From the NCBI RefSeq assembly GCF_037078405.1, contig NZ_JAYMGZ010000004.1:124001-188000 (forward strand): a DNA stretch of 64,000 nucleotides. Reading direction: 5' to 3'. Below the pieces are notes generated by a model that saw only the letters and a program-made list of their open reading frames with translations, ran no database searches and was not told where the DNA came from. This document shows positions 9,187 to 20,330 of this stretch, one piece after another. Source of the stretch: Haloarcula sp. DT43. GTDB lineage: Archaea; Halobacteriota; Halobacteria; Halobacteriales; Haloarculaceae. Position 1 is the first letter of the stretch, and each line of letters opens with the position of its first letter. Made by a program: the position numbers and the translations under genes.

Positions 9187-9618
9187 ATGATAGAGGCCAC
9201 GAGCGCGGGAGCCATCCTCTTTCGCGATACGCGTGGCCGGCGGGAGTACCTCCTGCTCAAGAGCCGACCCGGCGATTGGGAGTTCCCCAAGGGCGGCGTC
9301 GAGGGCGAGGAAGAACTCCAGCAGACCGCCATACGCGAAGTGAAAGAGGAGGCCGGAATCGGCGATTTCCGGCTTTTAGACGGGTTCCGCGAAGACTACG
9401 ACTACGTGTTCGAGGCGAACGGCAACACCATCCACAAGACGGTCCACCTGTTCGTCGCGAAGTCGTTCGAAGCGTCAGCCGAACTGTCCACAGAACACCG
9501 CGACCTGCAGTGGCGCGACTACGAACAGGCCATCAACACCGTCACGCAGGACGGCCCCCGCGAGATACTCGAGCAGGCACACGAGTTCCTGGACGAGCGC
9601 GAGGACGAGGAAGAGTAA
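9187..9618 (+). CDS. NUDIX hydrolase (Ap4A-hydrolase-like)
   Basis: Predicted 143 residues. A complete Nudix box spans residues 36-58, with the REVKEEAGI core that binds the divalent metal and catalyses cleavage of nucleoside diphosphate-X bonds. The opening ATSAGAILFR and the WEFPKGG preceding the box match diadenosine-tetraphosphate hydrolases. The acidic tail is typical of haloarchaea. An AT-rich segment at 9150-9180 supplies the promoter, and the leader is very short. Confidence 0.9.
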   Translation: MIEATSAGAILFRDTRGRREYLLLKSRPGDWEFPKGGVEGEEELQQTAIREVKEEAGIGDFRLLDGFREDYDYVFEANGNTIHKTVHLFVAKSFEASAELSTEHRDLQWRDYEQAINTVTQDGPREILEQAHEFLDEREDEEE

Positions 9619-9630
9619 CCGGTCCGGTCC

Positions 9631-9999
9631 TCAGACCGCGACGCCGGCCAGCAGCGCCGCTGCCGTCGCGTTACCCATGCCGATTACGAAGCTCCCGACG
9701 ACGGCAGCGAAGAGGAGGAGGAGAATCGGAATCCCTATGAGTGCCAGCGCGATGGCGATTTTCGCGCCCGTTTCCCCGGCGAGTTCGACCGCGATGATGC
9801 CGAGGATACCAACGAGGATGACCGCCCACGCCTCCCAGGCCCCCTGCTCTCGGGCGGTGCCGTTGGATGTCTTGATGTAGAAGTAGGCCGGCACGGCGAT
9901 TCCGATGGGGAACGTCAACAGCGCGACGACGACCGCCGCAATCCACTGTATCGTCGTGTACTGGTCGAAAATCCCGTCGCTCCGGGCGGCGGCGCTCAT
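9631..9999 (-). CDS. small multi-spanning membrane protein
   Basis: Predicted 122 residues from ATG 9999 (MSAAARSDGIFDQY); the frame is open further upstream but becomes Arg-rich. Three hydrophobic segments are visible: IQWIAAVVVALLTFPIGIAV, AWAVILVGILGIIAVEL and a long C-terminal stretch rich in Ile, Leu and Ala. There is no recognised family and no catalytic motif. It is convergent with the NUDIX gene and divergent from the DUF5787 gene. Function unknown. Confidence 0.65.
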   Translation of the reverse strand: MSAAARSDGIFDQYTTIQWIAAVVVALLTFPIGIAVPAYFYIKTSNGTAREQGAWEAWAVILVGILGIIAVELAGETGAKIAIALALIGIPILLLLFAAVVGSFVIGMGNATAAALLAGVAV

Positions 10000-10247
10000 A
10001 CCGGCCCTCCGCCGAGGGCGCTGAACGCGGCGTCGCCTGTCGGCTGGGACGCTGTGTCGAGGGCAATCGCGGCTGGACTGTCTCCGGGCTGTAGCCGTGT
10101 CATTCGTAACCGACGATTTATTTCTGAAGCTATCACATAAATAATCGGGTTGTGTCACCGAACGAAACGATTGCCCGGACCGCCGGCCCGGACGGGGCTG
10201 TGGCGTCGGAAGGAAGGGTTTTGGTCCGAAGCCGACAACGACTGCCT

Positions 10248-17754: not shown

Positions 17755-19842
17755 ATGACTCTAGCTTTCGAACCGCTCGACGACCGACCCGGGCTCGCGG
17801 TCATCGACCAGATAGAGCGCCAGCGCTACCGGATACACACGCCCGCCCCCGTCGCGCTCAGGGACGCCGCGACCGACGTGTTCCAGTATCCCGTCGGGGA
17901 CGCCGTCCGGATACGGACCCAGGCCATCGAACTCCCGACTGTCGTCATGGTGTACGTCCGCGACGACGACGGAGCGATAGCCGCCGAGGTCGCGCAGTTC
18001 GAGTCGGAGACGCTCCCGGCCGACGACTACGTGCTGGACCCACTGACACAGATAAAGACGTACATGCGTGTCGAGGACGCTCAGATAGCCGCCACCGTCG
18101 ACTCGGACCGGACCCGAATCGAGTTCGATACCCCGACGGACGTGCTCATCGGCGCTCGGTCCCAGCACGACCGGCCCGCGGCCACCGTCACGACGACCGA
18201 GGACCCGGCCGACGTGATGGCCGCGGTCGAGACGTTCGGGTCGGCGCTCAAGGCCCACGACCCCGAACGCTCCTATCCGACACTCCGGGGGCATCCCCCG
18301 GCGCTCGAAGTCGGCGACAGCCTGGACATCCCAGCAGATATCGAGCGCCCGGACACCGGCGTCACGCTCGAACTTCCGCCGGACCTCGCGTCGATTTTCG
18401 TCGCCGCGCCGCTCTCGTACTACCTCGGCGCCTCGCTGGTCCCCGCGGCCACTCCGCGACTCGTGACCGACACGGGATTTACGTACTCGCTCGATACCGC
18501 CCGGGGCTTCGAGTCCGAGGTCGGACGCACGCTCAAACGCCTGTTTTTCCTCGACTGTGTCACGCGCACCGAGGGGTTCCACCAGATAGACCTGCACGAA
18601 CGGGCGGCTATCGAGCCCTACGTCGACCTCGACTTCGAGTCGCTGTATCGACGACCGCTCGCCGAGCAGGTCGCCGCCTACCTGGAGGTCCCGTACGACG
18701 TCATCGAAGACCACATCCCGAAGTGGCGGCTGACGACCCACATCGACCCGGTGCCGGCGAACGCGGAACAGCTGCCGTACGTCGTCGACGACCTGGCTAT
18801 CGTCCGGACACACCAGCAACAGCGGCTGAACCAGGCCAGCGTCCCCGCGGAGGTCGAAGCCGAGTTCACCCGCGACGACGTCATCACCCGCGCCGCGAGT
18901 TCCGACACCGCCACCGCCTCGTCCGACGTGGACTACGTCGAGCCACAGGCCGAGGACTCCCTCGAACAGGCCTGGATAGGTGACAGCATTCCCATCGGCG
19001 CGAGCAAACTGACCAAAGCGGCGTTCGAGCACCGCCTCGACCGCGATATGAACGCCGAGGACATCACGATTCGCGTCGTCCAGAACGACGCCCGGATGGA
19101 CGAGGAGCGCCAGCTCGTCGACGAGGTGTACGGCACCCGCGACGACCTGCCGTTCGACGTGACGGTGCACGACGACCTGACGACGGCGGAACTTCGGACC
19201 GTGCTCACGACCGACGCGGAGTTCTTCCACTACATCGGCCACACCGAACAGGACGGGTTCGTCTGCCGCGACGGCAAACTCGACGTGACGACGGTCGATT
19301 CCGTCGGCGTCGACACGTTCCTGCTGAACGCCTGCAACTCCTACAATCAGGGCCTGGGACTCGTCGAGAAGGGCGCAATCGGCGGCATCGTCACGCTCAA
19401 CGAGGTCCTCAACGACGGCGCGGTCCGAATCGGTGAGTCGGTCGCCCGACTGCTGAACTGCGGGTTCCCGCTTCGGGCGGCGCTGACCATCGCCCGCGAC
19501 GAGAGCATCCTCGGCGGACAGTATATCGTGGTTGGTGACGGCGGGGTGACAGTTGCGCAGTCAGATGGGGGAACGCCGAACATGATTAGGATAATCCCTC
19601 AAGAAAAGGAATTTGAAATATTCATGAATATGTATCCAACTGATGTCGATGGGCTTGGAACTATTACCATGCCTCTGGTCGAGAATTATTCTGATCATCA
19701 TTTATCATCCGGCGAAATTGGCCCGATTATGCTTGACAGAACAGAATTGAAGGACTTTCTACTCATGCAGGAAGTGCCAGTGCAAATTGGAGAGAACTTA
19801 CATTGGAGTCGGTCTCTCGATTTGAGCGAAGCTATACAGTAA
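17755..19842 (+). CDS. CHAT-type caspase-like cysteine peptidase homologue
   Basis: Predicted 695 residues. Residues ~1-430 are an unfamiliar, mostly alpha/beta region without a recognised domain. Residues ~450-605 have the CHAT/caspase-like pattern: strand-helix repeats, then FFHYIGH with His496 (His492 also near), and FLLNACNSYNQG with Cys527, the expected catalytic pair, followed by GLVEKGAIGGIVTLNEVL. From about codon 600 the DNA turns AT-rich, and the last ~95 residues use codons unlike the rest. A TTTTTTATCG TATA-like element lies at 17695-17704. CHAT proteins act in stress, defence and cell-death pathways; such a role here is inferred. Confidence 0.72.
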   Translation: MTLAFEPLDDRPGLAVIDQIERQRYRIHTPAPVALRDAATDVFQYPVGDAVRIRTQAIELPTVVMVYVRDDDGAIAAEVAQFESETLPADDYVLDPLTQIKTYMRVEDAQIAATVDSDRTRIEFDTPTDVLIGARSQHDRPAATVTTTEDPADVMAAVETFGSALKAHDPERSYPTLRGHPPALEVGDSLDIPADIERPDTGVTLELPPDLASIFVAAPLSYYLGASLVPAATPRLVTDTGFTYSLDTARGFESEVGRTLKRLFFLDCVTRTEGFHQIDLHERAAIEPYVDLDFESLYRRPLAEQVAAYLEVPYDVIEDHIPKWRLTTHIDPVPANAEQLPYVVDDLAIVRTHQQQRLNQASVPAEVEAEFTRDDVITRAASSDTATASSDVDYVEPQAEDSLEQAWIGDSIPIGASKLTKAAFEHRLDRDMNAEDITIRVVQNDARMDEERQLVDEVYGTRDDLPFDVTVHDDLTTAELRTVLTTDAEFFHYIGHTEQDGFVCRDGKLDVTTVDSVGVDTFLLNACNSYNQGLGLVEKGAIGGIVTLNEVLNDGAVRIGESVARLLNCGFPLRAALTIARDESILGGQYIVVGDGGVTVAQSDGGTPNMIRIIPQEKEFEIFMNMYPTDVDGLGTITMPLVENYSDHHLSSGEIGPIMLDRTELKDFLLMQEVPVQIGENLHWSRSLDLSEAIQ

Positions 19843-20330
19843 ATCAGCATGCAATCTTCTATCGAATCTGTCGTTACTGGTTCAGAAGTCTTTGGCTGCC
19901 CTTGAGATTACGGACCGAAGTACGAACTATTATTAGCCGCTGCAGTCCCTGCCTGTGACAGTAGCATCAGGAGGGTAAACAGCGCGCCGGCCATTTTCGG
20001 GTGCTCTGCGAGGTATTCGCGCATGGTGGTATCGGACATGATACGACTTGGATGTTGGGTGGGGGATAATTAAATTTATTTGAAAAGTACCTACATATTA
20101 TATATTGTATTAAGTATAGAATTAAAAGACAAATCCAAAAATTAACGCACGCAGCGCTGGAAACACTCGTTTAGGGTGTGACTAACATAGACGCGGAGCG
20201 TCTCTATACAAGGGGGGAACGACGACACCCCCCATCAGTAGCGTTTAGTAGACTGGTATGTAACTAATAACCAGGATTTGGTATGGATGTTTGAAAGGAA
20301 ATTGCTTGAGGACTATCCGAGACATATGCT
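19555..20330. other. AT-rich island spanning the CHAT gene 3' end and following DNA
   Basis: Base composition drops sharply near 19555, inside the CHAT gene, and stays low to about 20330, against very GC-rich DNA on both sides. It covers the C-terminal codons of the CHAT gene, a 43-residue gene on the minus strand, and ~290 bp of noncoding sequence. No transposase, integrase or tRNA-derived end is visible. Two hairpins lie at 20189-20203 (AGACGC, GGA loop, GCGTCT) and 20212-20233 (six G, ten-base loop, six C). Confidence 0.75.
19908..20039 (-). CDS. 43-residue single-helix microprotein (DUF7503-like)
   Basis: Frame from ATG 20039 to TAA 19908. The protein starts MSDTTMREYLAEHPKMAG, has one hydrophobic helix (ALFTLLMLLSQAGTAAA) ending in a signal-peptidase-like AAA, and finishes NNSSYFGP. 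Short proteins with an EYL-x-x-HP head, LLLSQAG helix and GP end recur in haloarchaeal genomes; I recall the family as DUF7503. It is probably exported or membrane-embedded. A TATA-like AATAAATTTAATTA stretch sits 30-40 bp upstream. It points towards the CHAT gene and lies in the same AT-rich island. Confidence 0.78.
   Translation of the reverse strand: MSDTTMREYLAEHPKMAGALFTLLMLLSQAGTAAANNSSYFGP

Follow-up and report, generated by a model that had tools for sequence, protein, structure and literature searches.

A putative protease gene and a microprotein gene face each other in Haloarcula sp. DT43. In the window (the whole stretch of DNA analysed, 64,000 nucleotides), a CHAT-like (caspase-fold) protease homologue of 695 amino acids lies at 17755..19842 on the plus strand, as identified from its open reading frame, its homologues, and comparison with a CHAT profile. 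The opposing gene on the minus strand (19908..20039) encodes a 43-amino-acid microprotein that belongs to DUF7503 (Pfam PF24335, by alignment), and 65 bp of intergenic DNA (19843..19907) separate the two stop codons. Both open reading frames, their convergent orientation, and their spacing are as described in the original prediction. The presence of close homologues, the DUF7503 score, and the conservation of the pair throughout the class indicate that both reading frames are genuine and did not arise by chance. The 43-residue protein matched PF24335 over positions 1-42 of 42 (E value of 7e-22; 77.2 bits versus a curated cut-off of 27), and searches with it of NCBIfam and PADLOC matched nothing. 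The region upstream of the DUF7503 gene (20040..20110, minus strand) is AT-rich, promoter-like, and conserved, with 81-98% identity among 13 species.

The identification of the 695-residue protein as a distant homologue of CHAT proteases (PF12770, clan CD) was supported by profile-profile comparison. We aligned residues 435-585 (the CHAT domain, 19057..19509, plus strand) to a profile of 12 archaeal CHAT domains using hhalign and found a probability of 97.4% and an E value of 1e-11. The CHAT His and Cys aligned with His496 (codon 19240-19242), which is within a GH motif, and Cys527 (codon 19333-19335), which is within an NAC motif. These two residues were invariant across all full-length protease homologues examined. 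In both alignments of homologues, H492, G495, H496, N525, C527, and S529 were invariant, and C504 was nearly so. The CHAT-like context proposed earlier for the His496/Cys527 pair is thus borne out, and proteolytic activity of the protein is predicted.

More direct searches gave weaker signals. The Pfam CHAT family had weak matches in 15 of 66 aligned protease homologues (best 3.6e-4), and the window protein alone had no significant match in Pfam, NCBIfam, or PADLOC. A sequence search of solved structures with the protease returned nothing credible (best E value of 0.64). AlphaFold2, given an input of six similar sequences, yielded a pLDDT of 32 for the full 695-residue protein, and for the tail of the protease an input of six sequences gave 51; both are low-confidence models. 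The named close relatives are all from Haloarcula (84-86% identity). In RefSeq, the names 'CHAT domain-containing' and 'caspase family' are given to a few distant homologues; most homologues are 'hypothetical'.

The link between the protease gene and the DUF7503 gene, marked as an inference when it was first suggested, is strongly supported by their conservation as convergent neighbours, a property whose absence had been named in advance as a refutation. In 146 genomes of the window's family, 124 of 148 DUF7503 sites were convergent with, and within 1.5 kb of, a listed protease homologue, as judged by coordinates. This number increased to 138 of 148 once the loci of the unpaired sites were fetched, and the sites still unpaired were mostly at contig ends, had larger gaps, or were in rearranged loci. 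In other haloarchaeal families, which were sampled via their DUF7503 sites, all 53 distinct sites checked were convergent pairs. Protease homologues were sampled with one genome per species, and the DUF7503 gene was undetectable beside some of them. Among 98 pairs, the median distance from stop to stop was 19.5 bp; the distance was 10 bp or less in 43 pairs, and the genes overlapped in 13. Within the genus, a close homologue of the 695-residue protein was present in 24 of 32 genomes, and these were exactly the 24 genomes that have DUF7503. The other eight had neither DUF7503 nor a close homologue, and contained a distant paralogue only or nothing.

Several loci had unusual arrangements. In one locus (L109, 8348-8663), there are two DUF7503 genes in tandem, 1.9 kb from a CHAT homologue. 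In another genome (G011, C1:540-1945), a partial copy of the CHAT gene containing stops adjoins a DUF7503 gene whose score equals that at the intact locus. The two stop codons abut, with a gap of 0, in 12 of 12 genomes of one genus (loci L181-L192), and the tail in one of these (L186) looks mosaic, with L182-type and L183-type parts. In one genus, the DUF7503 and CHAT genes are divergent (L124, 4343-4831; L122, 4435-6845), and all that is found beside DUF7503 in L124 is a remnant that matches the tail of the CHAT profile. The genome that contains the window also has a second, distant CHAT-like paralogue (G000, C4:407711-409366; locus L067) that is 33% identical and is without DUF7503. Most members of the genus that are without DUF7503 have a homologue of about this degree of similarity.

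A second small family was found next to some of the CHAT genes. In 27 of 98 loci (e.g., L073, L085, L108, L136, and L164), none of which is from Haloarcula, the gene immediately upstream of the CHAT gene has the same orientation and encodes a protein of ~230 amino acids. Five of these upstream proteins that were tested, and one in L162, matched DUF7504 (PF24336), and one is fused to a HalOD1 output domain. DUF7504 is not adjacent to the copy in the window. DUF7503 and DUF7504 are Pfam families of unknown function, and neither is mentioned by name in the open PMC papers that we searched.

The sequence of the DUF7503 microprotein suggests a precursor for secretion whose mature peptide is short and hypervariable. 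Residues 1-35 (19935..20039, minus strand) are a conserved, signal-peptide-like part that ends with AAA, as indicated by pN/pS and an [AV]xA-type site. The predicted mature peptide, NNSSYFGP (19911..19934, minus strand), is hypervariable in sequence comparisons, with a conserved C-terminal GP. Among 119 distinct DUF7503 sequences, 116 have an [AV]xA-type site immediately before the variable residues. The C-terminal end consists of 7-9 variable and almost uncharged residues that close with Gly-Pro in 97.5% of the sequences; the GP end is absent from a few. We infer export and cleavage from this pattern of a signal-like part followed by an [AV]xA-type site. With such a site and a variable end, the microprotein resembles a precursor for secretion more than the plain one-helix membrane protein that it was initially taken to be.

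The hypervariability extends into the protease and is confined to the 3' ends of the two genes. Across 13 species of Haloarcula, pN was 0.01-0.06 and pS was 0.29-0.42 in the protease core (residues 1-602), compared with pN of 0.32-0.33 and pS of 0.71-0.78 in residues 603-690. In the same species, the signal part of DUF7503 had pN of 0.012 and pS of 0.18, and the last nine codons had pN of 0.18 and pS of 0.80. Nucleotide identity among Haloarcula was 0.84-0.95 within genes up to ~19.5 kb, only 0.44-0.63 from 19570 to ~19945, and back to 0.95 at the signal codons. There was no other coding stretch with a comparable drop in the ~17.7 kb of shared Haloarcula synteny. Since the synonymous divergence is high, the variation is not due merely to relaxed constraint on the protein; the alleles are either older than the surrounding genes or foreign to them. 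The variable part of the protease is a C-terminal tail domain (residues 603-695; 19561..19839, plus strand; GC3 of ~0.42) that had no match in databases. This tail, the intergenic DNA, and the codons of the mature peptide together make up an exchangeable cassette of roughly 370 bp (19561..19934), defined by a shared genealogy that is distinct from that of both flanks.

We considered and rejected a diversity-generating retroelement as the source of the variation because synonymous changes are saturated over ~280 bp and are in both genes. There were no silent copies of the tail in the genus that could serve as a source. Elsewhere in the window, the region from 9590 to 10219 aligned in only ~2 of 11 Haloarcula relatives, inside otherwise shared synteny.

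The low GC content of the region marks, on comparison of the genomes, an exchangeable cassette and not an inserted island. The AT-rich island of the original prediction was real in that GC is low, and was overstated in extent: it does not cover the locus, and starts inside the large gene. GC3 of the protease gene is ~0.8-0.9 up to residue ~600 and ~0.42 after that, and beyond this drop GC is 0.43-0.57 as far as ~20.4 kb. The DNA had also been described as foreign-looking, and this did not hold up. Synteny of the locus extends over 13 Haloarcula species, searches of phage and viral-contig collections had no match, and we reject a foreign or phage island because both the flanks and the core are syntenic. 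A search of Rfam matched nothing.

The tail of the protease and the mature peptide are co-inherited, as shown by their shared genealogy. The tree of the cassette rejected that of the core (log-likelihood difference of 484; p near 0 in SH and AU tests). Pairs of Haloarcula species with cores that are 96-97% identical can have tails that are only 34-46% identical and different peptides, and the peptide NNNIYIGP, along with similar tails, is common to three species that have different core relatives. The difference between peptides in Haloarcula was correlated with the identity of the tails (r = -0.60, p = 5e-5) and uncorrelated with that of the cores (r = 0.06, p = 0.63), in Mantel tests that remove relatedness incompletely. 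The tail, the convergent intergenic DNA, and the mature-peptide codons have one genealogy in common (r of 0.61-0.62, p of 0.0002). A separate genealogy is common to the core, the signal codons, the 5' intergenic DNA, and the gene regions on both flanks. The signal codons adjoin the mature-peptide codons and yet follow the genealogy of the core, so simple linkage is inadequate as an explanation.

The same relationships were found in three further genera (15, 12, and 8 species). In each, the tail was more variable than the adjacent core, the signal part was conserved, and the mature peptide was variable. The association between peptide and tail, given the core, had partial r values of -0.47 (p = 0.0004), -0.30 (p = 0.012), and -0.63 (p = 0.002). 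The signal was clear within genera, and the correlation beyond that with the core was weak when data were pooled above the level of the genus (partial r of 0.14), as expected since the alignments saturate. Based on these results, we conclude that cognate specificity of the tail and the peptide is well supported. A common genealogy is a sign of co-inheritance and not of binding; the two may bind each other.

We propose that the locus is a polymorphic peptide-receptor module for self-recognition or signalling, in which a ligand is co-inherited with a specificity domain on a caspase-like protease. We put the probability of this at roughly one half. The N-terminal part of the DUF7503 precursor, which is conserved, would serve as the export signal, and a cut after the [AV]xA site would free an uncharged peptide of 7-9 residues that ends in GP (NNSSYFGP in the window). 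The last ~93, hypervariable residues of the protease would be the cognate specificity domain for the peptide, and the attached CHAT caspase-like protease would be the effector, with its activity switched by recognition. Because the codons for the peptide and the specificity domain are at the 3' ends of convergent genes, a single recombination event with its end points in the protease core and the signal codons, both of which are conserved, could swap both and keep them matched. No signal peptide is evident on the protease. For a cytosolic receptor, the exported peptide would have to be re-imported, as in bacterial RRNPP systems, or else recognition would precede export. A ligand and a specificity domain that are matched by joint exchange between conserved arms is the most economical reading of the data; secretion, binding, and the output of the protease would follow from it as predictions.

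It is also conceivable that DUF7503 is an uncleaved, one-helix membrane partner that anchors, inhibits, or activates the CHAT protease, or that is cleaved by it, for example at a conserved Pro-Lys/Arg before the helix, with the tail docking on the exposed C-terminal residues. The 119 distinct sequences have an invariant Pro that is followed by Lys or Arg in 118, and then a hydrophobic stretch in which G, F, and Q are conserved. Class-wide conservation of these residues is beyond what a generic signal peptide needs, and for this reason the precursor may itself act as a binding partner. CHAT proteases elsewhere work on or with partner proteins, and co-inheritance of tail and peptide is compatible with a partner of this type. 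However, the [AV]xA site (116 of 119) and the Lys or Arg on the N-terminal side favour a topology with the N-terminus in and the C-terminus released or outside, away from a cytosolic protease, and we think that an uncleaved partner is rather unlikely.

A toxin-antitoxin or abortive-infection pair, in which the hydrophobic peptide or the protease is toxic and is neutralised by its partner, with cognate specificity keeping the match, is quite improbable. The small hydrophobic protein does adjoin a protease homologue, the two genes are present or absent together in the genus, and some copies are on haloarchaeal plasmids and some have decayed. However, DUF7503 is nearly universal in the class (336 of 392 sampled haloarchaeal genomes and 72 of 84 genera), is usually in one copy, and is syntenic in the genus; matches to PADLOC, phage, and viral sequences are absent; the genes are separate and convergent and not in a single operon; and hypervariable mature residues are unusual for such pairs. 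Among known anti-phage defence systems, PADLOC had no match to either protein and no phage association was found, and a role in defence has no direct support. Lastly, functionally unlinked genes whose 3' ends simply share an AT-rich spot prone to recombination or mutation would account for an AT-rich cassette and adjoining variable segments, but this is very improbable, as the cassette is more diverged than the intergenic DNA that adjoins it, its boundary is the junction between mature peptide and signal, with adjacent signal codons following the core genealogy, the convergent pairing with variable tail and mature codons recurs in four genera of differing local GC, and the genus has no silent tail copies.

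The peptide-receptor module, if correct, may have a wider meaning. Bacteria are known to signal with peptides that have polymorphic receptors matched to them; to our knowledge, this is undescribed in archaea. We suggest, tentatively and with less confidence than for the locus itself, that self-recognition in nearly all of the class Halobacteria is based on a short, secreted, hypervariable peptide that regulates a caspase-like CHAT protease through a C-terminal receptor domain inherited with it. If so, archaea would have their first peptide-pheromone pherotype locus, and a caspase-type protease as the sensing partner would tie archaeal self-recognition to regulated proteolysis or cell death. 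Caspase-like activity is strong in Haloferax volcanii, which has no clear homologue of a caspase gene (PMC3615174). Its density signal is reported to be an unidentified small molecule and not a large peptide (PMC12240190). We speculate about links to either of these; with the module, the orphan activity (PMC3615174) would gain a candidate gene, because DUF7503 is present in H. volcanii, one of our control genomes, and outside the window's family a protease homologue adjoined DUF7503 at all of the loci inspected. With its DUF7503 marker in 336 of 392 genomes, including a standard laboratory species, the idea of a module is directly testable.

The locus has parallels in known systems and differs from each. 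In the pherotype loci agr (Staphylococcus) and ComQXP (Bacillus), a hypervariable short peptide and the adjacent specificity part of its sensor are co-inherited between conserved flanks, and alleles are swapped among close relatives. Likewise, the peptide and the candidate sensor part of the Haloarcula locus co-vary, independent of the flanks. In the agr and ComQXP loci, a single operon carries the genes for a sensor of the histidine kinase type and for enzymes dedicated to modification or processing. In contrast, the Haloarcula locus is in an archaeal host, has convergent genes, and has a CHAT protease homologue as the candidate sensor; no processing enzyme is encoded, and Pfam had no match to a kinase domain in the large protein. 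We therefore do not file it as a member of this class.

RRNPP systems (Rap-Phr, PlcR-PapR) have a small exported precursor whose short C-terminal peptide acts on a cytosolic protein encoded by a neighbouring gene. The Haloarcula locus is similar in having a small precursor beside the gene for a putative peptide target. It differs in that the genes are tail-to-tail and that neither a TPR nor an HTH domain could be found in the 695-residue protein; for TPR, there was no Pfam match at E <= 1, and none was among the families tallied for 66 homologues. In Craspase, the TPR-CHAT protein Csx29 cleaves a partner protein. The Haloarcula protein shares with Csx29 a caspase-like CHAT domain with a His/Cys dyad. 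Unlike Craspase, the Haloarcula locus is without a CRISPR or TPR part, and its putative partner protein is very small, a precursor whose end is hypervariable.
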